DNA from: Sphaerolaimus hirsutus
Lineage: Eukaryota; Nematoda; Chromadorea; Monhysterida; Sphaerolaimidae
DNA: 64,000 nt
Reading direction: 5' to 3'
NCBI GenBank assembly: GCA_964036195.1
Contig: OZ038460.1
Location: 3,537,504 to 3,601,503 of the forward strand
Shown here: positions 3,019 to 59,159 of the stretch, one piece after another
How the letters are laid out: each line of letters begins with the position of its first letter
Numbering within the stretch: the stretch's first letter is position 1
The notes under the pieces: generated by a model
What the model saw: the letters and a program-made list of their open reading frames with translations, nothing else
What the model was told of the DNA's origin: nothing
The model's database searches: none
Translations under genes and position numbers: made by a program

Positions 3019-3082
3019 CGTCGATCAAAAATGTAAACTGAAACGCGACGCGTCGCGCGTCGGTTTACATTTTTGATCGACG
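3019..3082. repeat. Hairpin with 20-base perfect arms
   Basis: The arm CGTCGATCAAAAATGTAAAC is followed by a CG-rich loop of GACGCGTCGCGC type and then the exact reverse complement GTTTACATTTTTGATCGACG. TAGTTTACCA lies just outside. It could belong to the left end of the Harbinger-like element, whose right side near 8120 also holds TGGTAAACTG, but the match is only about nine bases. Confidence 0.6.
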
Positions 3083-3601: not shown

Positions 3602-3820
3602 TCGACAAAAAGAAATGCAAGGAAGTGCGACAAAAAAAATGCAAACTTTGTACTCGCTAATTGTCAATTTAAATCTAAAACTGTAAAAAGAAATCATTCT
3701 CCTTCTCGCTTCGACAAAAAGAAATGCAAGGAAGTGCGACAAAAAAAAATGCAAACTTTGTACTCGCCAATTTTCAATTTAAATCTAAAACTGTAAAAAG
3801 AAATCATTCTCCTTCTCGCT
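3602..3820. repeat. Tandem duplication, unit about 109 bases, two copies
   Basis: The unit starting TCGACAAAAAGAAATGCAAG at 3602 recurs at 3711 with very few differences (one extra A in a poly-A run). Both copies end in CCTTCTCGCT. No coding content. Confidence 0.8.
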
Positions 3821-23500: not shown

Positions 23501-26500
23501 CTGTGTCACAGTGGGAAAAGCAAACGCAACTAGAAACAGAAACATGCATGACTTATTGCATGCGCTTAGTTGGAAAACTTCCAATTGAATACAAAAAAAG
23601 GGCTCAGGAAGAGCAAAATTTTATCATTTTGATTCGTTTCATCCAGGGCGTGAAAAGGGAACTTTTTGAACAAAATGTGCTGGTAACATTACAAAAAGAC
23701 ATTGAAAACAAAGTGATAACTGAGCCACGGGAAGCTGCCCAGCGGCTGGATGATTACATTTTTGAATTGACTCGTTTGGGACTACGTCAAAAATTGGGCA
23801 ACACAAAACCTAACTTTGGGCCAAATAAACAACCAATAAAACAATTCAATTGCAATCCACCAGTTCAGTGTACGTATTGCAAAAAATTGGGACATAAAGA
23901 AGACACTTGTTATTCCAAAAGAAATAATGAAAATAAAAAATTGCCTCCCACCGCAGGTTACAGCGGTGTAAAATCGTTCGGGCCGTCGGCTACGCACAAC
24001 ACAAATTTGAAACCACAATCAGCGATGAAAGGGCCGATGGTCAACAAAGTGCATGCGAATTTGGCGTCACTGGTCGAAAACATTCAAAATTTGTCGGACT
24101 CTCTGCAAAATGCTTTTGTGAGTTTGCCGGACACTTTACAATCTTTAAAAATTCACAAACCCATTTTAAATTCTTCAAATTTGCAGGAGCAAGAAGTCAT
24201 TGAGGAAAATGCCATTGACAAAGATAGTGCAAGCTCGGTCGAAGATGATGTGACCACTACTGAACCGGACAGTGAGTTTTTGTCACCGCTTTTTGAAATT
24301 CCAATTATTGATAAAAATAATATTTATTTCGAAAAAACGCATGCACATACGCAGATTTGGAAGTGGATGGGACAACAGTGTTGGAAAATGACATTACTGA
24401 TACAAACATGTGCAATGTTGTGCCAGGGTTTATGGATTAAACCCTCAATCAAGCCAATTCGAAAGCTGACACATTCAATTTTCTCAGTGATCTCGCATTT
24501 TTGTGATTTTTTCATTGGTGCATATGCACCCATTGCCCGACAAATTACCGCAACTTTTACTAGTTTACAAAAACAAAATGTGATTCAAATGTATAAATTC
24601 AATTTATATGATTTAAAAACTAATTTAATTATGGCACCAATTACACTTTTTGGGCAATTCTGAAATGCAGTAATAGACACAGGCGCCACATGTAGTGTAA
24701 TCAGTAAATCAGTCTTACAAACTATTTTACACAAAGCAAAAATAACAATACCGTTGTCAAAATTGTTGAAACCCGCTAACGTAATAATACACCATGCAGG
24801 CGGTGTCGTTCCACCAGAGAAAATTAAACAAATTTTCATTCCAGTTACTCATACTGATAAAAATGGCACAGTATACAAGAAAATTGTCTCATTTTTGGTA
24901 AATTTGTCTAACACAGCCACTACTAAAATATTACTGGGACTAGATTTATTGCCATACATGAACTTCATGGAAATAATTCGAGACCATTTTCATTCGAAAA
25001 CACTTGAAAATGTATCTACAAAATTGCCAAAATCAACAATTGATTCCAAATCACAATTGAACAATAAATTGGATCGAAAAGCAAAAAATGGAATATTTAC
25101 TGCTGAAAATGTAAATATTCCATCAAATTCAATAAGTAAAATAAATTTTGCAATATCTAATTTAAATGCTACGGATGCTAAAACATCTGGTGTATGTGAG
25201 TTCTCTCTTTTGCAGAAAAATAATCCATGGTTGGACATATATGATATATATTTATCTTCTGCAAATACCAATATATACCAAACAATTGTTCTAAATAATA
25301 CTAATCACACAATTCAATTGAAGAAGAATGTAAAAATTGGACAATTTTATCCAAAAAAATAAAATTTTCAACTTTAGCACAAAAATTTTGGAAGGTGTTC
25401 AAAATCTCATCGCTGTGGAGGATCAAATACCTCCAAATTTTGTGGCATCTGTGCCAGACTTTCCAACAAAACAGACAGATAGATTTAAACATATAAAAGA
25501 AAATTTGCCCATGAATGACATGTGTGAATTATCAAAATGTCAAAAAACAACATTTGAACAACTCATTCACGATTTTCATGACATATTCTCATGTGGAGAA
25601 TTTGATGTTGGATGCACATCTTTAGTGGCACATTTTATCCGAGTAGATCCTTCACAAAAGCCTATCAAACAGGCTGTACGATATGAAGCACCTCAAAAGC
25701 GACCGTATATTCACACAACAATAGAACAAATGCTGGCACGTGGTATAATAGAACCATGTGACTCGCCATGGGCCAGCCCAATTAATGTTGTTAAAAAAGG
25801 GGATAATGACTGGCGTCTGACAGTCGATTATAGATTAGTAAATCTTATTTCACAAGTTCAATCTTACCCTTTACCACAAATTGGTCACATTTTAACTGAA
25901 TTAGCAGGTAGAAAAGTATTTTCTTCTCTTGATTTAAAACATGGTTTTTATAATTTGCCTTTGGGAGATGAACAAACAAAGGACATCACTGCATTTGTGT
26001 GTAGTATGGGTCAATTTCGTTTTTTAAGATGCCCAATGGGTGCATGTGGTAGTCCTGCATCCTTCCAAAGACTTATGAATGTCATGTTAAGAGGTCTCGT
26101 ACAACCACAAGAAGCTTCTCGTCCATGGGTTCGAAGCTATTTAGATGATTTACTAATTACAACAGACACAGTTGATAAACACTTATTAGCAATACAAAAA
26201 GTATTCGAAAGATTACGTTGGGCCGGTTTGAAATTGGGACCAAAGAAATGTTTATTTTTGGTCCATAAACTGAGATATTTAGGTCATGATATTGATTCAT
26301 TTGGAATCAAACCCGCATTCAATAGGGTAACTGCAGTACTAGAACAACCAGAACCTACTTCAATGCAAGATTTGAGACGGTTTCTGGGGAAAACTACTTA
26401 TTTTAGTCATTTTATACCATGTTATGCTGATGTTTCAGCCCCTCTATACCATGCAATTTCAGGTAAATTTCCAAAAAGGGGTTTTACACCTTTACTATGG

Positions 26501-29500
26501 ACAGAATCCATGAAAAAATCTTGGAAGCTTTTAAAAATAGCACTTACTAATCCTCCTTGTTTAGCACATCCTCAATATGATGGGAGAGAGTTTTTTATTC
26601 AAACTGACGCTTGTAGATATGGGTTGGCAGCTGTCCTTTTACAAAAAGATGATAAAAATAGGTTTCATCCATTAGCTTATATTAGCAAAAGAGTGCATGC
26701 TGAATATAAGAATTGGAGTGCTGCCATGCTGGAAGCTTTAGCTGTGGCATATGCATGTCGTCGATTTTCTCCAATCATTGATGGCCAGAAAATTGTCATA
26801 CAAACTGACAATTCAGGAATAGTTCAAGCATATAAATCCCCAAATGTATCCATTCTTGAAAGATGGTCTATGTACCTACAAAATACCATAACCAGGATTG
26901 AACATAGACCAGCTAACATGAATAAAATTGCAGACCAGCTTAGCAGAAATCCGATCGATCTAAATGACAAAGAAGACGAAAAAATTCTTTCAGAGGTGTC
27001 TGACTTAATTGACACCATTCCCGGACTGAATAACACAGAAAATATTCTTATTTCGGAAATTAACAATAATTCAGAATTTTCTTGGGAAAAAGAACAATTA
27101 AAAGATAAAAAAATTCAAGAATACAAAATTGCCATAGAAAATGGTAAAATATTTGAAAATGCTTGCATCATTGATAATATAGTTCATGTCCTAACTCCCT
27201 ATCATACAAAATGCTTTGTAAAATGGATTCCTGAACATCACAAAAATGCCTTTTTAGTTCAGGCACATTCAGGATTATATGCATCACACGGTGGGGTTGA
27301 AAAAACATTAGCTTTACTAACAAAGTTCGGTGCCTGGCCATCAATGAAAGCAGATATAATAAAGTATTGTCAACACTGCTCTGAATGTCACAGATTCAAA
27401 GTACACAAACATGGCAAAGCCCCAATGTTACTCACACCAACCCCCTCAGAACCATTTCACACAGTGCACATCGACTTAACAGAATTACCTAAAATTGGCA
27501 CTTTCCAATACATTTTAGTAATTGTCTGTGGACTAACAAGGTATGGAGTAAGCGTTCCTTTGTCAAATCGTAAATCAGAAACTATAACTAAGTTGTTTAA
27601 AAAACACTTTGTGCGTGTATATGGTGCTCCAAGCAAAATCATTTCAGACAATGCACCAGAGTTTCTTTCTGACAATTTTTCAAAAATGTGTAAAGAATTT
27701 AATATTCAACACATTACTGGACAGACATATCATCCACAAACAAATGGAATTGCAGAGCGTACAATTCAGTCAATTTGTAACATTTTGAGAATGATTCCAG
27801 GAAAAGGGTCCTGGATACAAAATGTCTCTTTAGCCACACTAAAATATAATATGGCAATGAATACAATTACTAAATATCCACCATTCTTATTAATTTTTCA
27901 ACGAATGCCAAGGATAAACTATTTTACGAATTCAATTTTGAGTGAAGAAAATCCACAAAAACTGTGGAGATTTGCTGAATTGAACACGGAACTAGCAAAA
28001 AGAAAATATATTTCATGGTTCAACAATAAACGACTGATAAAATGCCTTGACAAAATTATTCCAGGTCAAAAAGTCATGATAAAATCTACTGATAGTAAAA
28101 AATTGTCAGAAACACTGGCCCATTTCTAGTTGTTTCGATAAAAAATAACGAAGCGATACTAACAGATCCTTCATTTCGACAAACTAACACCATAACAACA
28201 AGACTAGAAAACCTTTTTCTAATCCCAAACTAACGGAATTTCACAAAATTTACCGCTCAAACATGAAATGGTTTAATTCGCGCCTATTATACCAGTCTAA
28301 AACAACCGGAGACGAAATGTCTCCATAAACGGGAGATTCATAGCGGTCAGTTTCACTTTCGCCGGCCAAGTGAGTACCAATTCCCCTAACCTCATGGTCA
28401 AGATGAATTTTCGCATCTACATAACCATTCTGCTCTTGAAAACAATTAGCGCAACATTCGCGGAAATTAAATCGCTTCGGGGTTTCATGAGAAAAAATCA
28501 GTCTCTTGTCCTTCTCCAACAGCTCCATAAAATTCTTCAGCGAGTACTCCTGAAATGTATACATCTACTTATATACAATAACTTTAAAACTAATATTAAT
28601 TGACATAATAAAATTTGAATTTTGAAATTTTTAAAATAATGTTTTCGGAATAATAAAATATAACATGTTTTATTTTGAACGTTTGAAAAACACATGGATA
28701 GTGGAAACACATTGTTCAACAAAATAATAACAACGAACTAACCAAATTCACAAAACAAACGTCTTTCGGCAAGTTGACAATTTCCAGCATTGAAATTTTT
28801 CTCTGCTCCATTTTGACAAAATTAAAAATCGTGTCTACACATTTTTGCGGGAAAACGTTGCTCTTTTGCATAATAGTCACCTGAAATGTGTAGATAAAAT
28901 TTAAATGCTAGATTTAAAAATGAATAAACCGATCATAATTGAAAAATAATTCACTTTACAACCACTTTTCGCCGCCGGATATAACTGAATCATATCCAAA
29001 TCGCTCAAATGGCAGGATTGCATTTGAGCACATTGTAGTGAAGAACAGATTTCAACCCATAAAGTCCTTGAGGGAATAGAGACTAGACTATGTGACATGA
29101 TGGGCAGGCACATCGAATTCATCCGAAAATTTGTCTGAAACATACACGAAATTCAAATTACTTAATTTGAATTGAGTTGAGTAATTCGGTAAACAATTTA
29201 ACCCGGATTACTAACCGTCACATAACACATCGTTTCCTGTATCTTTTCCTCGAATGAATTTTTGGCACTTTCACAGAAAAATTTGCGCTCTTTTTCCACG
29301 CGCAATTTGTGCTCTTTGTCATCAAAATCGACAATTTCAAAACAAATCTCGTCAATTTTTCCAGACATGCGACTGCCAACCGTCTAAAAAATAATTAAAG
29401 TGAAGTCTACAGGGAACAAATAATTTCAATTCATTCAAATTTATCAAATTTGACAGAAAAACTTCTAACTTGTGCATTTGCGAAACTATGCAGCAACAAT

Positions 29501-35500: not shown

Positions 35501-38500
35501 TTGTTGTGTTAAGTGCACGGTTTCATATCGCAAAATTTCCTGTCGGAACGTGAAGCAGTTTCATAATTACTCCTGTGGAGCAGCAAGAGTGGACTCCTGT
35601 ATATAAGCAGCTCCTGTGGAGTGACGTTGTTTTGCATATCGTGTGATAAATGTGAAAATTTTGTGATATGCATGTGTGCACTTAACATACTAAACAGGGT
35701 ACATTTATCTACAACCATGCTAAATAAGGACTATTTTTATGAAGAATTGGTGCTTTGGTAGACGACTGAATCTGTGTGCCACGTTCAAACACGTATTAAA
35801 CTGTGCTTCACGTTCCGACATGAATTTTTGTGATGTGGAACCGTGCATTGAACACAACAAATGGGGTAGATTTATCTACCTCCGTACCAAATTTGAGCAG
35901 TTTTCATCCAAAATTGGCGTGTTGGGAGCCAATTGAAACCGTGCGGCTGACGTGGGTCACCCTATAGTCATTAAATCTCGAATCTCGAAATCCGAAAACC
36001 GAAATCTCGAAAACTCATTAAATCAGCTTTGAAGGCATTTGGGTTTGCTAGAATGAAATGTTTGGCAACTACCTACAGTTGACGGACATTAACAATGACT
36101 CATTTCAGAAAACTAAAAAACGTCCAAAGCTGACTTATGAGGTTTCAAAATTTCGATTGAAAACTATTGTGCGCAGGCACAATGAATTGATCCTATCGGA
36201 ATCTAAATTGGTGCCAGCCAGGCCAAGTAGATTTTCAAAATTGTTTCCAAGCATTCGTGATCACGTGAACTTTCTGGCCACTGTGTCACATTGCACACTA
36301 GTATTTTAGACTGCTGGAATTTGGAAAAGGTATAAATCTGTTTTGAACACATTCGGGTTTATCAGATAAGGAATAATTTTTGATCGCCGTCAACAGATGA
36401 CACTCCAGACCCTGTAAAAAGCCGTGTAAAATGTCAAAAGTCATGGAAAATGTCCTGCAAAATTGCAAACGTACGTTTGCCATTTTGCAGGGCATTTTTC
36501 ATTACTTTTGACACTTTGCATGACATTGGACATTTTACAGGACTTTTTACAGGGTCTGAGAGTGCCCCCATTAGTTGATACCTAGACTCTCCATTGTGGT
36601 AAACTCAAAGGTATGCAAAACAGATATTTATGACGTTATTTACCAAATTTCAGTCCACATCGCCAATGTGTTTGAGTTTATTCTGTAATTTTGGTGTGTG
36701 CATTTAGAATTTGAATTGATTTTTTAAACAAAAAAAGTCCGCAAATGAGTGGCAAAAAGTGCAGTGCAGCCTAAAGAATACTGTGGACACAAAAAAAAAC
36801 TGAAGTTTATGTTTTGAAACACTACTAAGGTGAATGGACTACTTGGACATATTTGTGAGTGAATTGAAAGCGGATTTATCGATCTTCACCGAACGAATGG
36901 GGTGCGATTTTATCTGGTGATAAAAAAATGACTGGAAATTATTGTACACAACTAGACTAGAGTCTAAACAATTTACCAAAAATATATTTATTATTAAACA
37001 GTTGACATTGAGTTCGCATCAGAAGCGGAATTCCATGTCAACTGGCCTACACGGACTATGAAACAAATTGGAAAATAATTACACAAACGAAATTAAATCT
37101 TCCAAATATTTGTCACAGTGCTCTACATTGATTTCGATGTTATTTTACAACATGTGAAAAAAGTACTCCGAAACCCCATTCAAAACTGACCAGTAGTACT
37201 GGGCGTGCTGCTCGAGTGCAAGTACGGCTGCAAGTCGTACATGCCGTCAAAATTGCCGCCCCCGCCGCCGCCGCCGCCAGCCCTAGTGCCCTGAGTGACC
37301 AACTGCAGGTTCCACGCATTGTCGCCGTCCCCATATCCCGCAGCCGCGTCGACAACCTGCCGCTGCGGCTCGTAGCCGCCGCCGCCGTTGTTGTCGTCGA
37401 CAATGGAATTGGGCCTCGACCGGTCGCCGTAGCCCGACGCCGATGTCTGAAAGTCGCCCGAGCGCTCACTTTGAGTGTGCCGCTCTACCGCGAGTCGTTC
37501 TGGCGGCTCGTCCACGCTGTGCGCCAGCCGCGTGGGCCGCGACACCGACGCCGAGATCGCCGACGTGGGCGAAATGCTGATTGGCGCCGCGGCGGCGTCG
37601 TTGTGCTGCTGCTCGACCACCCGCTGCACAAGCGAAGGATAGATGGAAAGATAGAGGTAGAGAGGGGTTGGGGTTGGGAGAGTTGAGCCTGCCGCATAGT
37701 TGATGGATACTGATAATTTAGCGTTAAATAATTTTGCGTCGTAAATGTTTGTGGCTGTTATCGGGTTGGTCAGAAAGTTGTTGCGCAATTTAATGTAAGT
37801 AAAAGTGAGATGTAACATCTCAAATAAATTCCCGCAATTTCATGCCGAGATCGGGTACAACCATTCTCTTTCATGCTTCAATGTCGAGGTATTGTAAACA
37901 TTCAACTTCTGAGCCTCAATCGATGGATTTTGCCGCATCGAATTGAAAATGCGCGACCATGCAATAACCCGTACCTAAAACGCTAAAACAAACACGACAG
38001 GGAAGTTCACACTAGGTTATTTTAACACAGCTGTAAATACAAGCCCATCAAAAACATTGGCATGCAACAGGTTACACGGTAAACATACCGTATTTCTTTG
38101 AATTACCCTCCCCCTTGAGTTGACCCCCATCGAAATAACCCCGTCTTGAATGATGTACATCATCATGTAGGCAATGTTTTACGGTATCACTATAAGCAGT
38201 TGGGTATACTCTTTAGACAATGGCTTATTAAATGAAAGCTTCTAAGAAACCCGAGATGCGGCGAAGTATATTAAGGAATACGATATTTCCTCGAAAATCC
38301 TCCTTTAATAAACCTCCTCGTGCTATCCTCAGGTCTGAGTGAGCTTGGGAAACGCCCTCGGAAATAAAACCCTCGAAATACCCCCCGAATTGAGTGCAAA
38401 GAAAATGACCAAAACCGATAATTTTTTTTACCTTTCCGTTTTCCGTAAAGTTCACAATTTTTACCTTTCTGTTTTCCGGTTTCCGAGAAAAAAATTTTTT

Positions 38501-41500
38501 GACACACTAGTGACAAACCATGAATAAAAAACGAATTTCAAAAAAATTCTGGTGAAAAATTACCCCTCAAATAAGCCATACTTGAATTCACCTCCCTCAA
38601 AATTTGCTGATGAAATAATAAACTCCTGGGAGTATTTCGAGGAAATATTGTATGCAGATCTTTATACCCAGGTAACCATATCCATTTACCTAGTTAAACT
38701 ATGCGGCGGCGAAATAAAAGTTTGGGTAATTAGGGGCCAGATTAGCAGTCAGAACCATAGAAAAAACTGATTGAAGAGGCAACAGAATAAGGAGTAGAAA
38801 GTCGAAAAACGCGCATTCCATTATTAAAAAAACAGCGCTTCCAGCATGCACTTCCAGTATGCCGCAAAAACAATACAAAATTAACATGCTCCAAGCTATA
38901 AAAAAATCGAAAAAATCGCACCTGCACTTGGCCATATCCTCCATAACTATCCCCACTATCCGTCCTTTGATTTTCATATGGATCAACGCTGATTTTCTGC
39001 ACCGACCACAACGATTCAACATCATTATTCGAATCATCAGTCGCATAATTGGACTGTGAATTGTCATTATTCGATGGCCTTGGCGCCGGCGCGGCCGCCA
39101 CCGAGTTGCCGTAGGATGAGTAACCGTTTGAGGGTTCGTAGGCGCCTGTCGCGTGGAAACTGGGAACTGGGTCGCCTGTTATTTGGGGGGGGGGGGTTGG
39201 GGGTTTCCAAATCGGGGGGTTGCCATGCAATGTATCAAAATTTCAGTAAAAAATATTCCTTCTTTTTGTTATCATTGCCATTTTACATGACATTTTACAC
39301 CTGAATTTACAATTTACAGGGCTCGGGACTGCACCCAGGCTCGCCATTGGTCTTGCAGGAAACTTGAATCATTAAATTATGATATCGCAGATCACAAGTT
39401 TGCTCCGTTTCCATTAGATACTTGCATAACTAAGTATCTCATTTCCAGGCTACCCAAATAGCCCCCCACCCCCAACCCACGCCCCCCCCCCAAACCCACC
39501 AGTCTCCCCATAGGCAGTGTCGCTGACATAACTGGGCTGCTGTGACCCACTGCTATAGGCACCACCGCCAGAATTCGAACGCGGCCGTATAGGCTGCGTT
39601 CTCGCCGCGCGAACTTGTGCCGCCGCGCCGACCGGCCGCGATCCGTAAACTACCTCCGGCATGATCGGTCCATAGGGTATTGATTCGATTGGCGGTTCGC
39701 CTGAATTGATAGGGGTGTAAATTGGGTGGGAGAGTTGGTTTGGGTGCATTGGGTTTGAAAATGGCAAGGTGTTTGAGAAAACTTGTATAAAATTTGAAAT
39801 TGCCCTTTGTTCAATGAGTTTTCGGATTTTATTTTCGACCTTTTCCGAATTTATAAAGATAGTTTTCAAATTCTTTACACTGGTTTATGGACTATCGAAT
39901 GTTTTGTAACAATCGATTAATAATCAATATTTTATTGAACACTGTTGCACAACATCTTTCTAGCTGTTGCCGTGGATGCTTTCACTCATTTCCCCTATTT
40001 TTCCCACCACACTGCGTTTCTATTGCCGGTAGGCGTTAACCTGTATCTTGCAACCTAAATAACCTTAGAAATCGTAAAACATGACAGTACCATTGGGGCC
40101 GATGGCGACAATGGGCTGCGGCCCTCTGGCGATGTAGGGCACGATGGGCTTGAGCGCCTGCTCGCGGCGCGACCGCTGCAGGAAGAAGTCCTTCGTGGGC
40201 CGGTCGTCCGCCACCAGCTTCGCCGCAGGCGACCTGGGGTCACATCCAATTGGGAGCACGATTTCTGAGCTTATTGTTCTAATCGAAATTTGGACCTGCC
40301 GTCGAAATTTGGGAAACATATTTGTTTTGAATACATTTGAGTTTAAAAATAATTAATAATATTTTATCGACATCAACAGTAGTTGGCAGACACCTTACTC
40401 TGGTAAACTCAAACTGAAAAAATGGTTAAAAAATAAAAGTAACGATACAACTAGAATTTCCCACCCTTCTACTCACAAAAACGGATCCGGCGGCACAGTA
40501 ACCACCGCCTCAAGTCCCTTAAACTGCGCAAAGTGCGCAAACTCATCAGCGACGCTGGCCAACACGGCCTGCCTGTCGCGCGACAGCGCCAGTCTCTTCT
40601 CCGCGCCCTCGAACGGCTCCCACAGGTCGCCCTTCCTGCACAGGCCGCACGTGACCGGACACAGTTCCCTGATCTTGTCCGCGTGAGATAGTTTGCAGTA
40701 GCCGACCAGTTGAACGCAGTCGTAGCTGTAGTAGGATCTGGGGGCAGTCACAGATCTTGTGAAGGGCCATGGGAAATGGAAAATGTCATGTAAAGTGGGA
40801 AAAGTCATGTGAAATGACCTGGAAAATAGCAAACGTGCGTTTGCCATTTTCCAGGACATTTTACATGACTTTTTACACTTTGCACGACATTTGACATTTG
40901 ACAGGGCACTTCACAAGCTCTGGGATCGCCACCTGTCCTCGCAAATAATGCACATAGACGGGCCAATTAGCAGTGACGATAGTGAAATGATAGTGATAAT
41001 TAATTGATTCGGGTTGATAATTAACTGCGGGGTGCCGCGCGGCCGCCGTCTACTCGCAGCCGGCCGCATGACCGCCGCCGTGCCGCGTCGCTGCAGCGGC
41101 AGCGCGGCTTACTTTGAGCGCCGCCGCAGTTGATTCAGGTAGGTCATTGGGTGAGATTTGGTGTAGCTGAGAAGAATGCTCCAGTTTTCGACGATCGACA
41201 TTTTCGTTGCGAAATATTTAGTGCCGGCTGACTAATGGAAGTTTTTTGATGATACACGTCAATCAACATAGGTAAATATACTTATGTACTTAGTATTTTA
41301 GGTACTTTTTTACACAAATCACAAAGGTGCGAACTCGCTCATTCGAAGTGTGTGCGAAAATCAATTGTCAAGTGGCGCGGGGCGTTTTGTGGGTCAACGA
41401 CCATGAAATGAACGCGGCAAAATATTGAGTTAGCGCGGCAGTCAACCTAATTGACTACCGCGTCGCTTTTGTCAACTCGGAAAAACATCAGAGTCGAACA

Positions 41501-44500
41501 AAAAGCCCTCACAACTTGCGACATTCGGTCGCCATTGCATGTGGCTCTTTACGCGTGATCGGCCGCAATCAATTGTAAATCCACGCATTTCTGCCGCAGC
41601 AGAGTAGACACGCTAAACACCACACGACTGCACTATTTTATCAATATCACCAGCCAAAAATGTCGGCCCGGCGGCAGCACAATGGCGGCGGCCGCGTGCC
41701 GCACATGAATGACATTCCGCTGTGGCTGCAACGCCGCTGCGTTCTACCTGGCGGGCTAATAGTGCAAAGGTGAGTCGAGCTGAAATAGCCACTGGAGGAT
41801 GTGCGGCGAATTTGGACACACGCGCTCACAAGGGGGTCAGTTTCAGGTCGTTTCAAACGGTGGGGTGTGTGATAAGGGATTTAAAAAAGGGTGTGATAGG
41901 GTGATAGGTTGAATTGACACTTTCAAAATGCGGTCGCACTTTTTGTCGCCAAACTTGTCACGAAACTTGACACTTTTTATTCTTGACAACCGTCGCGTCA
42001 CTTGACACTATTCGCAAGAGCATCCGGCCGCGAGACACCCGACCGGCCGCGAATAATCAGTCGCGCCCGCCGGGCATTATGTTGACTTGTTTCCACGCAC
42101 TATCAATTGGGTAGATCGGGCGCGCGACGGCTAGAAGCGGCCACTTGCGCAACTGACGCAGAGTGCGCACTGCCCTTTTGTGCCGCCGGAGGCGCTTGGG
42201 AAGGGATTTTAGTGACCCGACATGTTTTTGTCGGGCAGCCCGATTTTTCGTGATCTAAAATTAAATCTGCTGCTCCTTTAAAACGACTCTGTCGGGCAAC
42301 GCCCAATCGGGTTGCCCGAAACACGTGTCGGGTTCATTTCATACACCACCGCCAGCAAATTTCAATATCGGCGCGGCACGGCCGCAGCCCTCCGGCCATG
42401 TCGCCTAGCCGTTTGGCAGGCCGCCGCGCGAAGAACACCAGCGGCGGGAAATCGTATTCTATTTTTTTTTACGAGAGAGCCACACATCGATAGTCGAAAA
42501 CACTTCAAAATCACAGAATAATGGACATCAAGCAGAAGCAGCAAATTGTGCAATGGACATCAAGAGATGGCGGCAAACGGCGCCACGTTGTAATACCGGA
42601 AATTGTGTTTAAAAAAATATGTTTACATGCTACATAATTAGTTATTACACACACGGGTGTTGTGATAAGATATTTATTATTATTGCTTTATTGAGTGGCC
42701 TGAAGAGGCCTGTGTTTGAACTCATCATCGAATGTCCATAAAAGCTATAAAAAATTCGCAAAACAAATTTTTGGAAACCGAAAGAAATTTTTGCAACTTG
42801 CAAAGTGCGCAATTAAACAGAGATTCTACATGCGTCATGCAAATAAAAATCGGAAATACACAAAGCGAAAAAAATTCCCCGCCAAAAACACATCCACGTA
42901 CAACATGCACTGCCGCGATAAATTCTATCTCCAACCACAACATAGCCAATATATCCGATAGTGATATGATATGATTTCTACTAGTCAATTCAATATGCGC
43001 GCATAGCCTAAGGCAGGGGGGGGGGTGATTCATTTTCAACCCAAAATTTTCACATACACTCTTATATATTCACATATTTTGTGTGGATAAAAACCCATCA
43101 TATCAGATACAGATCGATTGATTTCTATAGGCTGCACGCGTGTGGATGTGTGCATTTTTGTTTGGTGGATATGTACTTGGAGATGTTCTCAAAGGTGTGG
43201 GGATTTTTCCGATGATTTTATTTATGTACCAACTTGGATTTTGGTGACGAGTCTTCGAAATGGATGATAAAAAATTTTAGCGGCCGATTTTGAAAGCGAC
43301 GTGAATGTCATGGTTATGCTCTTCAAAGTTCACAACCTAAAAATGAAAATAGGTACACATTATTTATGTAGGTATGCTCTCGCGGCCGATTAGTGTCACT
43401 TTCAGGATTACACTTTTTTCGCCGATAATCACACAAGCAATCAAATGATTTGATGCTCAGTAAACTGACAAAGTAGCAAAGTTTTTCAAGTGTGTCGATG
43501 TGAAAAAAATGTCGCGCCGACAACTTAACCGATGGCACTCAAAGTTCAAATATGCGTCCATGTAAATATGTGAATTTTTTTGAAGAGCATAGATACCTCA
43601 CTTCCAGTTTTGCCGCGAAAATAGTCTAAAAAATAGATGATGCAAATCGAAACATTTTAGAAATGAAAGTGGAAACTAATCGCCAAGCGTGCAAACAAAT
43701 AGAAATTGCTACATACCGTATTACCTCGAATTATCCCCCCCCCCCCTTGAATCTACCCCCCCTCGAAATACCCCCCCCCCTAAAATCGGCTGAGGAAATA
43801 ATAACCCCCCCCCCCTCGAAATACCCCCCTAAAATTGAGTGTAAAGTACATGTACATGACAAATACCGTAGTTTGTGATCTGTACAATGCAGAACACACG
43901 TAAAAGTGATGGCTAAGTCACGTTAGGGAAGGGTTTATGTGTATATACAGCGATATATGCCTATAAACACATATACATCTACGTAATTGTTAGATTTTTC
44001 TACGTCTGCGTATGGGGAATTTCCGAAAATTTCTGGCGAAATAATAGACCCCCCCTCGAATAACCCCCCTCGAATTATCCCCCCTCAAATTTTGCTGGCG
44101 AAATAATAAACCCCCTGGGGGTATTTCGAGGTAATACGGTATTTAGTAAAAATAAATATATAGGTACTAATGCGTTCAAAATCATCAATATCAACAAACA
44201 AAAACATGATATTCGAACAGAAAAACATGGGTCAAGGACCAGACAAAATACACCCCATAAATCAAATTCACCCGCCACTATTCAAACATCGAAAAATCTA
44301 TCGAGAAAAACGTAATCCGATCGAATTCCCCAAATTCACAAATCCATCACCTATGTATTTTAGCCAATATCACAATTCAATTTTCAAAAGTTGCCAAATC
44401 CCCCAGTTGCTAAATTTGCACATGAAAACTGGGTAGCGACAGCCAGCCACACAATTGAAAAAAATTGAATATTGGAACTTCAAAGTGCTTTTTATTTACG

Positions 44501-44969
44501 AGCTGATTTGAATATGGGGATGAGATATTTTTGACCAAAAAGGTTCGGAAATAAGGATATTTAATGATAAATTTTCGTGCAAAAAACCCAAAATACTCGA
44601 AAATAAAATTATCAAACAATAGCCAAGCATACAAATTGAATACCTCTTATCACATTTTCCACCTCTACATGCGTCACAAAGCTGCAAGCAGGGGGCAGTC
44701 CCAGACCCTGTAAATGTCAAATGTTATGCAGTGTCAATAATCATGTAAAACGACCTGTGAATTTCCGGGGCATTTTACATGACTTTTGACACTTTGCATG
44801 ACACTTGACATTTTACAGGCCATTTTACAGGGTCTGGGATTGGCACCAGGTCGGGCGACGGCCGCCGCAACGGCACAATGTCGCCGCGACATGTTTCATT
44901 GTGTTCCAGCGACAAGTTAAGCTGATTCCACATGATTTTCAACAATTCAACGACATATGTACGACCGCC
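17599..44969 (-). CDS. Secreted ShK-domain / DB-module matrix protein (5' end missing)
   Basis: Fourteen exons chain with consistent phases on the minus strand: 44847-44969, 44644-44681, 40477-40737, 40091-40233, 39500-39700, 38922-39175, 37191-37623, 34612-35106, 32912-33401, 21183-21312, 20212-20542, 19516-19781, 18097-18243, 17599-17685 (stop TGA). That gives at least 1132 residues. Exon three carries a ShK-like six-cysteine unit (YDCVQLVGYCKLSHADK, then LCPVTCGLC), preceded by CDACRGGKCDKR. The long middle is Pro/Gly/Ser-rich, with four near-identical 15-residue units of NVNTPGFTPGAPNG type. The last three exons hold 12 cysteines spaced as in DB modules, with CC pairs in LQQCCKMNSISPYC and SDCCRAKGVHGC. 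Such proteins are extracellular and often cuticle- or matrix-associated; function here is inferred from domains only. The intron at 21313-32911 is inflated to 11.6 kb by nested transposons. The first exon and signal peptide were not found. Confidence 0.82.
17930..18055. repeat. Truncated copy of the CAG-target palindromic family
   Basis: Repeats of CATGACATTTGACATTTCA lead to the family right end GGCTCTGTGACTGCCCC followed by CAG. It lies in the last intron of the ShK/DB gene, about 45 bases from the donor of the DB exon. The left end is missing. Confidence 0.7.
18290..18660. repeat. GTTTACTAGAA / AGCTGATTTATGAG imperfect palindromic repeat
   Basis: Words such as GAGTTTGCCAGAAT, TCAACTATAGTTGACGAA and TTCAAAGCTGATTTATGAGT occur in inverted order, plus GTGTGYGGCCAC...GTGGCTGCACGCAC at 18470-18505. 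Related copies lie at 36010-36365, 40300-40420, 48463-48640, 52040-52225 and 60115-60275. Confidence 0.55.
18684..18943. mobile_element. TATACTCGGCGGACCGCA TIR element
   Basis: GGTATACTCGGCGGACCGCA at left is exactly mirrored by TGCGGTCCGCCGAGTATACC at right. The 260-base interior has no ORF but includes CTCCATCATGACGTCATC, also found near 47790 (inverted) and 62145. Confidence 0.88.
18941..19400. mobile_element. CCGTATTTCCTCGAAA C-rich MITE
   Basis: Left end TACCGTATTTCCTCGAAAAA and right end TATTTCGAGGAAATACGGTA, TA on both sides, interior of poly-C blocks with CTCGAAATAC spacers. It abuts the 18684-18943 element, sharing the terminal TACC, so one inserted at the end of the other. Confidence 0.8.
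19850..20180. repeat. GGGTCTTTTACATGACA repeat block with internal hairpin
   Basis: Multiple copies of ACATGACATTTGACA and ACAGGGTCTTT words flank a hairpin whose arms are GTGTATCCAAATCTTATTGT and its complement (about 19970-20040). It appears related to the CAG-target palindromic family but is rearranged. It lies in a ShK/DB intron. Confidence 0.6.
20707..21076. mobile_element. 370-base near-perfect hairpin element
   Basis: CTGATACGCACATCTGYCCG at the left edge is mirrored at the right edge (CGGACAGATGTGTGTATCAG). Almost the whole length is one long inverted repeat with arms of about 170 bases (TTCACTTGACACWTTTTC, AGATATGAGTGAAGTGAAAA) around a short centre. It lies in the intron between exons 20212-20542 and 21183-21312. 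RNA from it would form a long double-stranded stem. Confidence 0.85.
21420..21915. repeat. GTACTGAAC...ACGTAAA dispersed repeat
   Basis: The sequence from AAAGGTACTGAACTTTTTCAAAGTAAACG to CTCGAGTATATGTATTTATCGAG matches 61167-61665 in order and content (TACTCAC, AGAAAACGTAAA, GAGTACCGGTATTTTTTCGCG). Its right end meets the TA in front of the long-TIR element. No coding potential. Confidence 0.7.
22208..22354 (+). repeat. 5' LTR of gypsy-like element
   Basis: 147 bases, TGTTGTGAAATG...CTCATAACA. It differs from the 3' LTR only at two bases near 22251. Confidence 0.95.
22513..24663 (+). CDS. gag: Gag protein of gypsy-like element
   Basis: A 716-residue frame. The middle (about residues 255-360) has the tryptophan- and hydrophobic-rich pattern of retrotransposon capsid domains (SGEAPDNFKDWKENVEQHLF). 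A CCHC zinc knuckle at residues 453-466 (CTYCKKLGHKEDTC) is the nucleic-acid-binding nucleocapsid part. Asn-rich repeats with GN.GA spacing occupy about residues 180-235. The ATG at 22513 is about 160 bases after the 5' LTR; a second in-frame ATG follows at 22534. The frame stops at TGA 24661, and the codons just beyond encode the protease in the same frame, so a Gag-protease product would need readthrough, unless the TGA is a mutation. Confidence 0.9.
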   Translation: MNIFSVNMERTPPRVLTRSAQPNVALGVSDMDFFATADRQRQAAERNMHRNPNSVNAPNELNTSCSTAVVGSSPDASNHPVSLLDTQTPFLNDSAIFAIGRNMSASRPTNSPVVDLQVSQENLQHSQFVQMNQQMNDLTNLVQDMQLTVVQSIQLSTVTMNNEIANIKDRLDALDKGKNSMGNVVPTSVDNLGAISGDIGNRGAVSDNVENLGNVENYGNSGIGATSEMVNVSNISSIGAMPLQVVISSIPTFSGEAPDNFKDWKENVEQHLFMVPEALLARFWYMIFTAKLVLLAKNLWKSFTRDQKQNYKFILQEFEKSFRSHTQRMTVSQWEKQTQLETETCMTYCMRLVGKLPIEYKKRAQEEQNFIILIRFIQGVKRELFEQNVLVTLQKDIENKVITEPREAAQRLDDYIFELTRLGLRQKLGNTKPNFGPNKQPIKQFNCNPPVQCTYCKKLGHKEDTCYSKRNNENKKLPPTAGYSGVKSFGPSATHNTNLKPQSAMKGPMVNKVHANLASLVENIQNLSDSLQNAFVSLPDTLQSLKIHKPILNSSNLQEQEVIEENAIDKDSASSVEDDVTTTEPDSEFLSPLFEIPIIDKNNIYFEKTHAHTQIWKWMGQQCWKMTLLIQTCAMLCQGLWIKPSIKPIRKLTHSIFSVISHFCDFFIGAYAPIARQITATFTSLQKQNVIQMYKFNLYDLKTNLIMAPITLFGQF
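24664..25362 (+). CDS. Aspartic protease region, in frame after gag TGA
   Basis: The frame directly after the gag stop reads AVIDTGATCSVISKSVL at 24667-24717, with DTGA as the retropepsin active site, then a second motif region (ILLGLDLLP at about 24932) typical of the C-terminal part of retroviral-type proteases. It has no ATG until 24754, which is after the active site, so it cannot start independently and still be functional. The frame ends at TAA 25360, inside a run CCAAAAAAATAAA, and overlaps the RT frame, which is +1 relative to it. Confidence 0.85.
   Translation, partial: NAVIDTGATCSVISKSVLQTILHKAKITIPLSKLLKPANVIIHHAGGVVPPEKIKQIFIPVTHTDKNGTVYKKIVSFLVNLSNTATTKILLGLDLLPYMNFMEIIRDHFHSKTLENVSTKLPKSTIDSKSQLNNKLDRKAKNGIFTAENVNIPSNSISKINFAISNLNATDAKTSGVCEFSLLQKNNPWLDIYDIYLSSANTNIYQTIVLNNTNHTIQLKKNVKIGQFYPKK
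25337..28129 (+). CDS. pol: Pol: reverse transcriptase, RNase H, integrase
   Basis: A 930-residue frame. The RT has SPWASPINVVKKGDNDWRL, DLKHGFYNLPL and the catalytic box YLDD at residues 268-271. RNase H follows, with QTDACRYGLAAVLL (Asp about 424) and TDNSGIV. Integrase has the HHCC zinc finger (AHSGLYASHGG to CQHCSECHRFK) and a D,D35E core: Asp713, Asp771, Glu807. All catalytic residues I can see are intact. The frame stops at 28129, just where the chromodomain-less GPY/F module begins in another frame (GPFLVV at 28117, open to TAA 28231), so the C-terminus is frame-shifted. The first ATG overlaps the protease frame; translation probably depends on a frameshift rather than on this ATG. Confidence 0.93.
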   Translation: MDNFIQKNKIFNFSTKILEGVQNLIAVEDQIPPNFVASVPDFPTKQTDRFKHIKENLPMNDMCELSKCQKTTFEQLIHDFHDIFSCGEFDVGCTSLVAHFIRVDPSQKPIKQAVRYEAPQKRPYIHTTIEQMLARGIIEPCDSPWASPINVVKKGDNDWRLTVDYRLVNLISQVQSYPLPQIGHILTELAGRKVFSSLDLKHGFYNLPLGDEQTKDITAFVCSMGQFRFLRCPMGACGSPASFQRLMNVMLRGLVQPQEASRPWVRSYLDDLLITTDTVDKHLLAIQKVFERLRWAGLKLGPKKCLFLVHKLRYLGHDIDSFGIKPAFNRVTAVLEQPEPTSMQDLRRFLGKTTYFSHFIPCYADVSAPLYHAISGKFPKRGFTPLLWTESMKKSWKLLKIALTNPPCLAHPQYDGREFFIQTDACRYGLAAVLLQKDDKNRFHPLAYISKRVHAEYKNWSAAMLEALAVAYACRRFSPIIDGQKIVIQTDNSGIVQAYKSPNVSILERWSMYLQNTITRIEHRPANMNKIADQLSRNPIDLNDKEDEKILSEVSDLIDTIPGLNNTENILISEINNNSEFSWEKEQLKDKKIQEYKIAIENGKIFENACIIDNIVHVLTPYHTKCFVKWIPEHHKNAFLVQAHSGLYASHGGVEKTLALLTKFGAWPSMKADIIKYCQHCSECHRFKVHKHGKAPMLLTPTPSEPFHTVHIDLTELPKIGTFQYILVIVCGLTRYGVSVPLSNRKSETITKLFKKHFVRVYGAPSKIISDNAPEFLSDNFSKMCKEFNIQHITGQTYHPQTNGIAERTIQSICNILRMIPGKGSWIQNVSLATLKYNMAMNTITKYPPFLLIFQRMPRINYFTNSILSEENPQKLWRFAELNTELAKRKYISWFNNKRLIKCLDKIIPGQKVMIKSTDSKKLSETLAHF
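28250..29752 (-). CDS. Antisense spliced cargo gene inside the LTR element, unknown
   Basis: Six exons on the minus strand fit in phase: 29734-29752 (ATG), 29470-29663, 29216-29383, 28955-29134, 28743-28880 and 28250-28549 (stop TAA). Introns are 70-86 bases except one of 193, all GT-AG; one donor (GTGAAT) is weak. The sum is 999 bases, 332 residues. It starts MSSLLAACKSLKAHSREALG and includes a Lys/Glu-rich stretch (DKEHKLRVEKERKFF), several cysteines (CSSLQCAQMQSCH; ECCANCFQ) and ends ELNHFMFER. I recognise no domain, signal peptide or membrane segment. Its stop is only 16 bases from the end of the integrase-related frame, and its start is 185 bases from the divergent plus-strand gene. Because it is antisense, its introns would survive retrotransposition. 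Confidence 0.6.
29753..29937. promoter_or_regulatory. Shared upstream region of the two divergent cargo genes
   Basis: The 185 bases between the two start codons are AT-rich and contain TATAAAAA at 29903-29910, about 28 bases before the plus-strand ATG. On the minus side I see no clear TATA box. It is the only place where a promoter independent of the LTR could lie, but function is inferred from position alone. Confidence 0.4.
29938..32173 (+). CDS. Sense spliced cargo gene inside the LTR element, unknown
   Basis: Eight exons can be joined with matching phases: 29938-30219, 30288-30449, 30692-30965, 31036-31199, 31273-31385, 31458-31542, 31723-31930 and 32010-32173 (stop TAA). They total 1452 bases, 483 residues. 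Exon one has a cysteine cluster (CCRCGPFLKDIC) and a likely coiled coil (REEQNKNLASKLL). Exon four is Arg/Gly-rich (GRGWGQFKYNRPYGRARSHN), as in RNA-binding tails. Later exons are Ser/Thr/Ala-rich. No domain is recognised. The end of exon two and part of the following intron are repeated at about 30567-30648, and exon two also has a well-behaved alternative frame, so that exon is uncertain. The acceptors of exons seven and eight are also choices among alternatives. The stop lies 50 bases before the 3' LTR. Confidence 0.5.
32224..32370 (+). repeat. 3' LTR of gypsy-like element
   Basis: 147 bases, same ends as 22208-22354, followed directly by the TATGA duplication. Confidence 0.95.
33135..33290 (-). 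repeat. 45-base coding minisatellite in ShK/DB exon
   Basis: Four near-identical 45-base units encode NVNTPGFTPGAPNG-type 15-residue repeats in exon 32912-33401. Units differ by single bases (GTC/GCC). Proline- and glycine-rich repeats of this kind are usual in extracellular matrix proteins. Confidence 0.88.
34106..34366. mobile_element. Possible short TIR element, TATAC ends
   Basis: AGGTATACTCCGG at left and CGCCGAGTATACAT at right are imperfectly inverted. Inside, CGCTGGAAGTGTGCCAACAAT pairs with ATTGGCACGCTTCCAACACG. The same inner pair occurs at 50722-50906 (CGCTGGAAGCGTGCCAACG / TTGGCACGATTCCAACGCG). No coding content. Confidence 0.5.
36407..36569. repeat. CAG-target family palindrome, diverged intronic copy
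   Basis: Ends ACTCCAGACCCTGTAAAA and TTACAGGGTCTGAGAGTGCCCC with a hairpin centre (CAAACGTACGTTTGCCATTTTGCAGGG). It lies deep in the intron between exons 37191-37623 and 35106, not at a splice site, and no matching CAG duplication remains on both sides. Confidence 0.7.
38086..38652. mobile_element. CCGTATTTC C-rich MITE, degenerate copy
   Basis: Left TACCGTATTTCTTTGAATTA, right AGTATTTCGAGGAAATATTGTA. The interior has CCTCGAAAT words and a TTTCCGTTTTCCG segment. The right end is mutated relative to the other copies. Confidence 0.6.
39278..39345. repeat. Partial copy of the CAG-target palindromic family
   Basis: TTTTACATGACATTTTACAC...TTTACAGGGCTCGGGACTGCACC followed by CAG. This is the right half only, in the 324-base intron between exons 39500-39700 and 38922-39175. 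Confidence 0.6.
40741..40932 (-). mobile_element. Introner-like palindromic element, 3' end is the splice acceptor
   Basis: A 192-base palindrome bounded by the duplicated triplet CTG (plus strand, 40738-40740 and 40933-40935; CAG on minus). On the minus strand the element starts GTGGCGATCCCAG straight after one CAG, and ends GTGACTGCCCC before the other CAG. That second CAG is the acceptor of the ShK exon (40737). The internal arms (CATGACATTTGACATTTNACAGG) are shared with the other family members. If 40933 is an exon end, the element is excised exactly; the open sequence just upstream (MCIICEDR into SYYSYDC) would allow this, but whether that exon is used is unknown. Confidence 0.8.
41030..42430. 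other. GC- and CpG-rich stretches within ShK/DB intron
   Basis: Blocks at 41030-41135, 41660-41760 and 42000-42430 are far richer in CG dinucleotides than their surroundings (GCGGCCGCCG, GGCCGCGAATAATC). No exon is supported. An internal promoter or alternative first exon for the ShK/DB gene is possible, since the ShK exon lies about 300 bases downstream of the first block. Confidence 0.35.
42540..43713. other. No gene seen
   Basis: AT-rich intronic sequence. I see no exon with good splice sites and no clear repeat boundary. Confidence 0.4.
43714..44141. mobile_element. CCGTATTACCTCGAA C-rich MITE
   Basis: TACCGTATTACCTCGAATTA to TATTTCGAGGTAATACGGTA with TA at both edges and poly-C/CTCGAAATAC interior. 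Lies in the intron before the ShK exon. Confidence 0.85.
44692..44846 (-). mobile_element. Introner-like palindromic element filling a whole intron
   Basis: A 155-base palindrome bounded by the duplicated triplet CAG (plus strand, 44689-44691 and 44847-44849). Read on minus, the upstream exon ends in CTG at 44847 and the element begins directly with the donor GTGCCAATCCCAG. The other end is GACTGCCCC, then CTG and CTTGCAG, the acceptor of exon 44644-44681. The intron is 165 bases, of which all but ten are this element. Its arms (CCCAGACCCTGTAAA, CATGACACTTGACATTTTACAGG) match the copies at 40741 and 58942. Confidence 0.85.
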
Positions 44970-50941: not shown

Positions 50942-51110
50942 CCGTATAGGCATCCACTTCGAAGAAAACACCACTGCTCCAGGCTGCGCGCAAGTCTTAG
51001 AGCGGCGTTACGGCCTCAAATTGGCAGGCAGCCAAGCCACCTCCGTGTTGGACGTAGACTCCGCCTACCAGTGCAAGCTGCGCAAACCAATTGTGACTTT
51101 GCTTGACATT
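50942..51110 (+). other. Orphan open segment of protein-like sequence
   Basis: After a possible acceptor (GCCGTATAG/GC) the plus strand reads IHFEENTTAPGCAQVLERRY and then GLKLAGSQATSVLDVDSAYQ with balanced amino-acid and codon composition. It stops in sequence that resembles half of the CAG-target palindrome family (51108-51150). I cannot assign a family or connect it to other exons; it may be a lone exon or a captured gene fragment. Confidence 0.3.
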
Positions 51111-52039
51111 TGGCATTACATCTGACACTTTACAGGGCTTGGGACTACTCCATATCGATGTTGTAAAATCTCCAATCAATGTCGAGCGATATTTTATTTT
51201 GCTTGTGCATCAATCCGCTCTACCCCACTTAATTATTATTATTATGTTTGACATTTTTGACGAATTTCTACACCGATGTTCGAAACGAGGACGTTATAAT
51301 TGGCATGGTTCCAACCCTTGACCAATAGATTGTGCCCATCGAAATGACCTGGCGTCGGTTGACGTCAATGTCAATTGAATTTTTTGAATTGCATGATTTG
51401 AGTTGAATTGCATGTGAATTCTAGGACTGAGATAACGCTTTAAAAAAGTTTAAAACTCTGGCCATGGCTTCATTGAATTCATAAAAATAAATGTTTAAAG
51501 TAGGAAAAGGTGATTTTGACAGTGCCTTGTCAACAAGTTGACACCGATGAGCCCCGCACTGTAATGAGTGTAGGTACCTATGTGAAAATGGACGATCCCT
51601 GCAATTGTCTCCTACATTAGTCATTATAAATTTGACACATTCAAAAAAAATTCAGTTGACAACCGGCACCAATCGTCGCCGCGCCGAATGAATCTGCTAA
51701 TTATTGGATTAATCAGTATGTGCGTATTATATGTTTGTTTGTTGTACATATATTGTCAACTTAGAGATGCGTATCGCTTCAGAAATCGTCGTCGAACAAC
51801 ACACTCGGCACCAGTAAAATTATATTCAAATATTTGATATCACTTTTTCAACAGAAAAATAACAACTAATGCTTCAAAATTGCCTCCGAACTTCGGAGAT
51901 GCGCCAAAGAAAACAGGGTCACAACACAAATATAAACGAATTTAACCGTCACCACGCGTTTCATCATAGAGCACAGTATTTTCAGCGCTGGCGACAGTAG
52001 AAATCAATGCCAGTACGCACACCAGTTGACAATCGAAAT

Positions 52040-57795: not shown

Positions 57796-58941
57796 GGTCA
57801 AGTGTTAAGTGACACTTGATTTAAAGTGTTTTATAGTTGATTCGGTGTAGGTTTTTTGCGGTGCGTTTGGATTTATCTCGTCTTTCTATTGCATCACAAT
57901 TTGGCTGCCGTCCAAGGGTTATCACCACTTTCGTGCTACTTTGCCTAGTTGCGAAAAAGCGCCTGTTTTAGCCGCAAAGAGGCGATCGATTTTACTGTTT
58001 TCCATGAAAAATGAAGCTCGATAGCTTGTGTACGAACAATACGGATCTCTCGATTAGGACTGAACCAATTGTGTATGTAACCTTCACGGTATTTACGGTC
58101 CATTACGAATGTTTACTCTTCATTTTTATATCGCAACTAATGAAATGGATACATTCGATAACAACATGGCTCAAATAAACTAAATCATTCAAGATTTCAT
58201 AAATTCCCATAATCACGCGTTTTATACAACCTAAATACTCACCTAATCCTCACAAGCCTTCAACAACATTAGTCACAATCGCTCTACAAATTCAATGGCG
58301 CTAATAAAGTGCACACGAGAGGGGGGGGGTGCCTTTTGCATTAGCCGAACACCCCCCAAGTGCAGTGCAATGCACAGCCACAGTCGAAGGTGCAGTGCAA
58401 CGCATCAAGCAAATGAGTTTGTCCATAGCATATGGTGGTCTGTTCTGCTCTATTGTGTTTTGAGTACCATGGGTTCTCGTGTGGTCGCGGGGTTTTGAAG
58501 GGAGTATCTTTTGACAGACATAGGGTCACTTAAATGAGACGTCACACGTCACCAGGCGGTCATATGCACGCACGTCGAGTAATATTTGCTGGGCATCATG
58601 CATGTTATAAGTGTGCATTCGGCTGGCCGCCAGAGAAGTTCTACGGGGGCCTATTCCACTTTTTTCGAGTGAAGAAGGTACGAATTGTATTTTCTTCAAA
58701 TATTTACAACGTATTTAAAACGCTAAAAATTTTGGTTGACATTGGACAACCATCTCACACCACTTCGCAAACAAATTTTTGGAACAGGATACTTGTCTTG
58801 TCACTTGTCAAGTGGACAGAACTGGAGCCAGGGGCCAGAGTCAATTGCAGCTAAGGCGCACTTAAGGCGCCCGAAATCATGAAATTTCGTGCGATTTAAG
58901 CGTTTACCCGGGATGTCCTATTGAATTGAATTCAGGACCAG
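57796..58941. promoter_or_regulatory. Upstream region of eIF2 gamma
   Basis: The 5' flank of the eIF2 gamma start codon. I see no TATA box at a convincing distance and no other gene. A short inverted repeat of GTGCAGTGCAATGCAC type lies at about 58360-58405. Confidence 0.35.
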
Positions 58942-59130
58942 GTGGCACAGGTGGACAAATGCCCTGTAAAATTTCAAATAATTTCAAATTTCAAAAGCCA
59001 TGTAAAATTCCCACGCTGTAAGCCATGTAAAAACGACGAACGCTCGACAAATGCCATTTTACATGACTTTTGTCACTTTGCATGCCATTTTACATTTTAC
59101 AGGCCACTTCACAGGCTCTGAAAGTGCCCC
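58942..59130. mobile_element. CAG-target palindromic element, third complete copy
   Basis: 189 bases bounded by the duplicated triplet CAG (58939-58941 and 59131-59133). It starts GTGGCACAGGTGG and ends CTCTGAAAGTGCCCC, with arms ATGCCCTGTAAAAT and CATGCCATTTTACATTTTACAGG. On the plus strand it reads CAG/GTGG...CCCCCAG/GT, so it has intron-like ends in either context. I see no coding sequence on either side. Confidence 0.82.
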
Positions 59131-59159
59131 CAGGTCCCATCACCCTACCCCATATGTGA

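Follow-up and report, generated by a model that had tools for sequence, protein, structure and literature searches.

The stretch analysed here, referred to below as the window, comprises 64,000 nucleotides of the genome of the nematode Sphaerolaimus hirsutus (GenBank assembly GCA_964036195.1, contig OZ038460.1, positions 3,537,504–3,601,503 of the forward strand); coordinates are counted from its first letter. It contains a gene with an ShK domain and several copies of a palindromic miniature inverted-repeat transposable element (MITE), one of which appears to divide that domain. Among the sources of sudden intron gain, introners have the best support, and the first-pass annotation of the window had proposed that this MITE family makes introns. 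Having followed the family through the genome, we conclude with a probability of about 0.86 that it is a NuwaI-like non-autonomous palindromic DNA transposon turned introner in a nematode, with the GT end of the element as the predicted donor and the duplicated target triplet CWG (W is A or T) as the predicted acceptor.

Copies of the element at the locus

Three complete copies had been listed at 40741–40932, 44692–44846 and 58942–59130, and all of them are present there. A profile built from 72 family copies, two of them the window's own, was run over the window. It recovers the three copies and adds a fourth, nearly full-length one at 36398–36568 (plus strand, E 5.9e-45), which has a decayed left end and no CWG at either side and sits between the longer open reading frames (ORFs) of the ShK gene region. 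The same region holds a partial degenerate copy at 39218–39335 (plus strand, E 1.6e-9). Elsewhere the profile marks a broken copy at 17913–18057 (minus strand) and further degenerate pieces at 2–186, 19887–20173, 51076–51151 and 60674–60792.

Copy 1 (40741–40932, 192 bp, minus strand) starts on its strand with GTGGCG, which contains the putative donor GT, and ends with CTGCCCC; its inverted arms are 96 nt long and 81% complementary. On the plus strand it is flanked by CTG at 40738–40740 and 40933–40935. Read on the minus strand, the CAG at 40933–40935 is predicted to stay in the exon and the second target copy at 40738–40740 to supply the AG acceptor, which gives a predicted GT...CAG intron from 40932 down to 40738. 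The exon 3' of the copy (40473–40737, minus strand) encodes an ShK domain (PF01549, profile positions 6–37 of 37, E 1.6e-4, with 40473–40736 scanned). Removal of copy 1 together with one CAG brings the first ShK cysteine into frame from the upstream flank (40933–40965, minus strand), the predicted end of the preceding exon. The earlier suggestion that loss of this copy would restore its target agrees with both flanks, and the reading that copy 1 divides the ShK domain exactly, as a clean GT...CAG intron on paper, is supported.

Copy 2 (44692–44846, 155 bp, minus strand) reads GTGCCA...CTGCCCC on its strand with CTG at either side, i.e. CAG on the plus strand at 44689–44691 and 44847–44849. Its predicted RNA fold has an energy of −79.9 kcal/mol, compared with −40.5 ± 4.0 for 200 shuffles (z −10). 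The first-pass annotation had taken this element for essentially an entire intron, with the CAG of a TTGCAG seven bases past the duplication (44682–44684, minus strand) as candidate acceptor. The sequence lends this no support: the coding score of the junction, on the scale introduced below, is low (2.7), and the acceptor is a guess. Copy 3 (58942–59130, plus strand) reads GTGGCA...GTGCCCC between CAG triplets at 58939–58941 and 59131–59133.

Survey of the family in the genome

The genome holding the window amounts to 348 Mb in 762 contigs. Copies were collected genome-wide by their ends, as had been proposed. The 14-base donor-side end GTGSCARTCCCAGA has 4,254 exact matches and its reversed-pattern control has none; 1,771 of these ends follow CAG and 1,770 follow CTG, together 83%. 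The genome total for right-end CAG is 1,334. When the exact ends are required at both sides with 122–152 nt between the two 14-nt end motifs, 180 exact full copies remain, in which exon and non-exon copies are mixed: 92 are flanked by CAG/CAG, 55 by CTG/CTG, 24 by CTG/CAG and 9 by CAG/CTG (donor-side triplet first).

A sample of 84 elements was taken from 80 fetched loci and the window, with repeats removed, and all elements were oriented with the GT end first. Their consensus is a 184-nt palindrome. The description of the copies as sharing inverted ends is correct as regards the palindrome, but the two ends are unequal, one being GTGCCA, with the putative GT donor, and the other GGGGCA when read inward (...TGCCCC). 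CWG is present on both sides in 54 of the 84 elements (CAG/CAG 20, CTG/CTG 18, CTG/CAG 11, CAG/CTG 5). The remaining 30 have at least one non-CWG flank, reflecting decayed, misjudged or truncated ends; one of them (L070) was later found to be CAG/CAG. The empty site deduced from the 54 two-sided cases is CCWGG-like, with C before CWG in 72% and G after it in 57%. A three-base CAG/CTG duplication had been inferred from the window, where indeed the same triplet flanks each of the three complete copies; for the family the target is better described as CWG, and its two copies are unlike in 16 of the 54.

The frequency of such unlike pairs deserves a remark. Among the 180 exact copies, 33 have CTG on one side and CAG on the other, which seems too many for point mutation at the observed divergence; mismatched joining at insertion may be their source.

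Two further observations concern the family itself. At one locus (L040, plus strand, 1160–3800) three, perhaps four, members lie inside 2.7 kb, and one of them is flanked by CGA/CCG, not CWG, yet stands in coding-like sequence. There is also a subfamily ending in GGGAGTGCCCC (e.g. L027, L067 and L069 at 1503), whose members contain an AG 6 nt short of the end; its use would add three codons in frame, with no need for the target triplet.

Coding junctions, reading frame and protein domains

Each junction received a score, that of the best open frame with the element and one triplet left out; the underlying codon model had been fitted to 718 codons from genes that could be recognised. The pattern sample consists of 30 loci chosen by end pattern alone; three of them gave no element, and the other 27 contain 36 two-ended elements, 24 of which are the pattern copy. 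On the GT strand 8 of the 36 junctions score at least 8, whereas among 2,160 positions drawn at random from these loci the share is 1.7% (p = 1.2e-7). Two of these eight are secondary copies in their locus (L069, L072). CWG sites provide another yardstick: 66 of the 1,014 sampled per strand over all loci score as coding (6.5%), and against this background p equals 0.002. On the other strand 1 of the 36 junctions scores at least 8, compared with 1.1% of positions. The similarity sample, for which the 44.7-kb copy was the query, contains 46 elements; 16 of their junctions score at least 8 on the GT strand, compared with 3.8% of 2,760 positions.

When only the best frame of each of the 84 elements is considered, 23 of the 24 with a score of at least 8 are on the GT strand, and 27 of the 31 at score 5. 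Exon copies are nearly all oriented with GT first. Given the 23 of 24 best frames, this orientation looks like a requirement of splicing and is unexpected for a plain MITE. The 3' triplet of the 23 strongly coding GT-strand copies is CAG in 12 (L070 counted as CAG), CTG in 9, and other in 2. The earlier idea that the duplicated CAG itself supplies the acceptor fits the CAG-ended copies and fails to cover the nine that carry CTG in this place.

In the frame test the best frames to the left and to the right of the element were chosen independently, so that they agree after exact removal in one case of three by chance. On the GT strand and at threshold 8, agreement is seen in 23 of 26 cases (CTG/CTG 10/10, CTG/CAG 4/4, CAG/CAG 6/8, other flanks 3/4), and at threshold 5 in 11/12, 4/4, 7/9 and 3/4 of the same classes, respectively. 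On the other strand 6 of 10 agree at threshold 8 (4/7, 1/1 and 1/2 by class). Among the other flanks the one failing copy is L028; its right end carries a bare AG instead of CAG, and with just this AG removed its frames agree.

Thirty joined ORFs were scanned against Pfam. With the window excluded, the score list (4.5 or more) holds 27 ORFs on the GT strand, of which 22 were scanned, and 4 on the other strand, of which 1 was; a further 7 GT-strand ORFs outside the list were picked by eye. Thirteen match a domain at E ≤ 0.01, and in 11 of these the best stretch spans the junction. For CTG/CTG copies the spanning domains are GWT1 (L040), Sugar_tr, HSP70 (L021), ASC, 7tm_1 (the G protein-coupled receptor locus L048), Oscp1 and Trypsin (L039); a POLB thumb domain spans a CTG/CAG copy (L047), AMP-binding and a second Oscp1 site span CAG/CAG copies, and a C2H2 finger spans the junction in L072, where the right flank is TTGCAG. 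Eight of the 11 matches are above the Pfam cut-off, and ASC, AMP-binding and zf-C2H2 are below it. Two kinds of match were left out of the domain cases: a weak one to DUF745 in L034, where the ORF is coiled-coil-like, and leucine-rich repeats in L060, which stop short of spanning the junction. At the HSP70 junction 73 residues align with 73 profile positions (E 2.5e-27). The OSCP1 gene (L069) contains two copies of the element, one CAG/CAG and one CTG/CTG, and the profile spans both without a change of length.

The triplet at the 3' end

The element is followed by CTG, not CAG, in 64 of the 180 exact full copies. On the right side CAG thus outnumbers CTG 116 to 64 (p = 1.3e-4), compared with 101 to 79 on the left (p = 0.12), and mixed copies are more often CTG/CAG than CAG/CTG (24 vs 9, p = 0.014). 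There is thus a preference for AG at the 3' side, but no requirement. Median arm mismatch is 0.142 for CTG/CTG and 0.128 for CAG/CAG (16 copies each), so the CTG/CTG copies are not younger; for CTG/CAG it is 0.152, and these medians do not support the suggestion that the mixed copies are simply older.

All three CAG-ended domain copies tested have a GT-AG intron that restores the protein unchanged. Since both triplets are alike in CTG/CTG copies, no AG is gained by sliding the borders inside them. The distance from the last internal AG to the end of the element is 16 nt in 32 of 46 copies, and to the end of CWG 19 nt; this AG is mostly part of TTTTACAG. A normal route through GTAAAA...TTTTACAG, a strong pair inside the element, was considered and rejected; it would leave 37 nt (hand count) in the mRNA and shift the frame. 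Use of the internal AG found 6 nt before the end in some copies would add three codons and is the cheapest GT-AG option for GWT1. The few other introns that were read by eye in this genome, in the eIF2-gamma, HSP70 and POLB genes, are all GT-AG.

Other features of the window

The eIF2-gamma gene lies at about 57.8–53.9 kb. The best matches of its protein (best 120 of 7,831) are mostly from nematodes, at 77–84% identity, with other animals close behind. A fragment of a DDE_Tnp_4 transposase (PF13359), a PIF/Harbinger-type domain, was found by Pfam at 7530–7925; no strong family end was seen beside it, and the fragment is not tied to the ends of the element. Long ORFs of a retroelement occupy 22513–28129, with reverse transcriptase, RNase H and integrase in 25334–28129.

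Outside the window, a second, distinct palindromic MITE family is present on the reverse strand of L021 at about 2075–2285 and 2800–3090, in and near the HSP70 gene. Its ends, GTGCCAGTTCCGC...GCGGAACTGGCCCC and GGGGCCAATTCCGC..., are similar to those described above, and it may be a sister family mobilised by the same enzyme.

Interpretation

The proposal that the family is introner-like gains support from the genome sample in four respects, namely the excess in coding exons, the orientation on the GT strand, and the restoration of both frame and domains. At the level of the family, the ends, the target and the strand bias were all observed, as was the restoration of frame and domains; it is very probably an introner family, its splicing being predicted. 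The element would insert at CCWGG-like sites, with duplication of CWG. Where it enters an exon with the GT end upstream, the transcript would read CWG|GT...TGCCCC-CWG|, and the donor used by the spliceosome would be the element's own GT, the acceptor the second target copy. Loss of the element and of one CWG would then restore the exon exactly, a CAG target giving a GT-AG intron and a CTG target a GT-TG intron. The GT end probably derives from a GG end, and the mobilising enzyme would be a NuwaI-type transposase. In the CTG copies the TTTTACAG 19 nt upstream might be recognised first, with ligation then shifting to the CWG that adjoins the hairpin's base.

Several points weigh against this interpretation. 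No transposase with these ends turned up, none having been sought. As many as 60 of the 84 sampled elements stay below score 8 in every frame, and 17 of the 30 joined ORFs have no Pfam match. Two CAG/CAG copies (L025 and L043) are out of frame after exact removal. The codon model was trained in part on loci to which it was then applied (L047, L048, L049 and the window), the pattern sample being free of this overlap, and the query of the similarity sample had CTG on both sides. In that sample 7 of 46 junctions on the other strand score at least 8, above the background of 2.4% of 2,760 positions; shadow frames of real genes are the likely cause, though a second orientation may exist. The domain cases were dropped as proof of strand bias, 29 of the 30 scanned ORFs having come from the GT strand. 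Full CTG/CTG copies are fewer than CAG/CAG (55 vs 92, p = 0.003), a deficit that would also arise if CTG copies had been lost in part or converted. Finally, the CTG-ended copies are at odds with a simple GT-AG model: in the seven CTG/CTG domain copies the surroundings of the ends were searched, for donors between −60 and +80 and for acceptors between −80 and +60, and no GT-AG pair in this range restored the protein exactly in any of them. With no exact GT-AG option, three explanations offer themselves: TG serves as the 3' end, splicing is costly, or the alleles are broken.

The last two of these options make up the strongest alternative, to which we give a little less than an even chance. It states that only CAG-ended copies are spliced exactly, and that CTG-ended copies use nearby GT-AG sites, with a few residues lost or added, or sit in damaged or heterozygous alleles. 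The cost of the cheapest open GT-AG pair is indeed small in two of the seven CTG-ended domain copies, three residues each for GWT1 and Sugar_tr. The preference for CAG at the 3' side and the deficit of CTG/CTG copies point the same way, as does L072, which looks spliced at the TTGCAG just past its end, which would give the usual spacing of a C2H2 finger. TG, moreover, is described as never the sole 3' splice site in human genes (PMC2374985). On the other side, the cheapest pair alters 6 residues in Oscp1, 8 in 7tm_1, 13 in ASC and 14 each in HSP70 and trypsin, and by arm mismatch the CTG-ended copies look no younger than the CAG-ended ones. The equality of CTG-left and CAG-left ends in the genome speaks weakly against purging, as most copies may lie outside exons. 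Use of CTG itself as the 3' splice site, perhaps by way of the upstream TTTTACAG, is the least certain step of the introner interpretation, and we consider the chances evenly balanced. The wider statement that constitutive GT-TG introns form a large class in this nematode genome, all seeded by a single family, is put forward tentatively, at odds just short of even. On this view the duplicated CWG would be joined whether it reads CAG or CTG, guided by TTTTACAG and by the hairpin as it draws both ends together, even in conserved genes such as HSP70 and OSCP1.

Much less probable is removal by a route other than the spliceosome, either hairpin-guided cleavage and ligation of RNA or somatic excision of DNA, indifferent to whether W is A or T. 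The very stable predicted hairpin of the 44.7-kb copy would suit such a route, as would the tolerance of both CTG and CAG with the frame restored in both classes. However, the strong dependence on the GT-first strand and the greater preference for CAG at the 3' than at the 5' side are more readily explained by the spliceosome than by a hairpin reaction, which would be symmetric; the elements are retained in the assembly, which presumably represents mainly somatic DNA, and the few other introns read by eye are GT-AG. Least probable of all is an ordinary MITE with no intron-making role, its splice-site cases arising by chance in gene-rich DNA: the many sampled elements with no strongly coding junction and the enrichment of CWG sites in coding DNA would agree with it, but the excess in the pattern sample is confined to the GT strand (8/36 vs 1/36, and 23 vs 1 in best frames), exact removal restores the frame, and the HSP70 and OSCP1 domains are unbroken across the junction in genes that a plain insertion would have wrecked.

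A nematode family with thousands of ends, traceable to a known transposon group by its target site, would show how a transposon end becomes a donor and a target site an acceptor. The CTG copies make regular use of non-AG 3' ends by the spliceosome a direct question in an animal. If true, constitutive GT-TG introns would be an exception to the rule that a TG never stands alone as 3' splice site, while selection would still favour AG wherever it arose.

Relation to known systems

Our literature searches covered titles and abstract openings among the matches listed, with subscription papers outside their scope, and found no title on introners in nematodes. Nor, within the same scope, did they show a nematode introner of the CWG type whose acceptor is divided between CAG and CTG. 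A later survey of introners and horizontal transfer may bear on the nematode question.

The NuwaI group belongs to the PHIS (PIF/Harbinger-ISL2EU-Spy) superfamily and is described from animals, with CWG duplication and inverted ends that usually start with GGG (PMC4482050). The family studied here shares with it the 5'-CWG-3' target duplication; of its two ends, one (GGGGCA) starts with GGG and the other with GTG. Nematodes are not among the hosts that we found named in that source. An autonomous member would be expected to encode a DDE transposase and a Myb/SANT protein, of which the window offers only the PF13359 fragment at 7530–7925. We label the family a NuwaI-like MITE on account of its CWG duplication and its one GGG-starting end; the label is our reading of these two traits.

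Across animals and land plants, a 2022 survey reports introners from no more than two groups (Gozashti et al. 2022, PMC9860276). With the introners described there the family has several features in common: the DNA element is non-autonomous, has inverted ends, duplicates a short target, is present in many copies and lies in exons, with the frame restored on exact removal. In the Chrysochromulina case of that survey the element carries the 5' splice site and co-opts the 3' site; the same split is predicted here. What differs is the nematode host, the 3-bp CWG duplication, and the TG offered in place of AG by 64 of the 180 exact copies, splicing being predicted in our case.

The introner elements of the dinoflagellate Amoebophrya (PMC7789003) likewise have hairpin-forming inverted repeats, direct repeats of 3–5 nt at the borders and non-GT-AG borders. 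As described in that source, their border dinucleotides vary widely and they have no family-specific inverted-repeat motif, whereas here there is one family with a GT 5' border, and mainly the last triplet varies (CAG/CTG).

In human genes TG 3' splice sites are reported to have an AG no more than 28 nt away in every case, and their choice may fall in the second step (PMC2374985). A close AG is a common trait, since here it lies 19 nt before the end of CWG in 32 of 46 copies. In the human genes of that study, however, TG is an alternative site, whereas here it would be the only one that restores the protein. Large-scale acceptance of non-AG 3' ends in an animal has a precedent in Fritillaria borealis (PMC13326754). 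In Fritillaria 95% of introns are stated to escape GT/AG, whereas in S. hirsutus the few other introns that were read keep to GT-AG.

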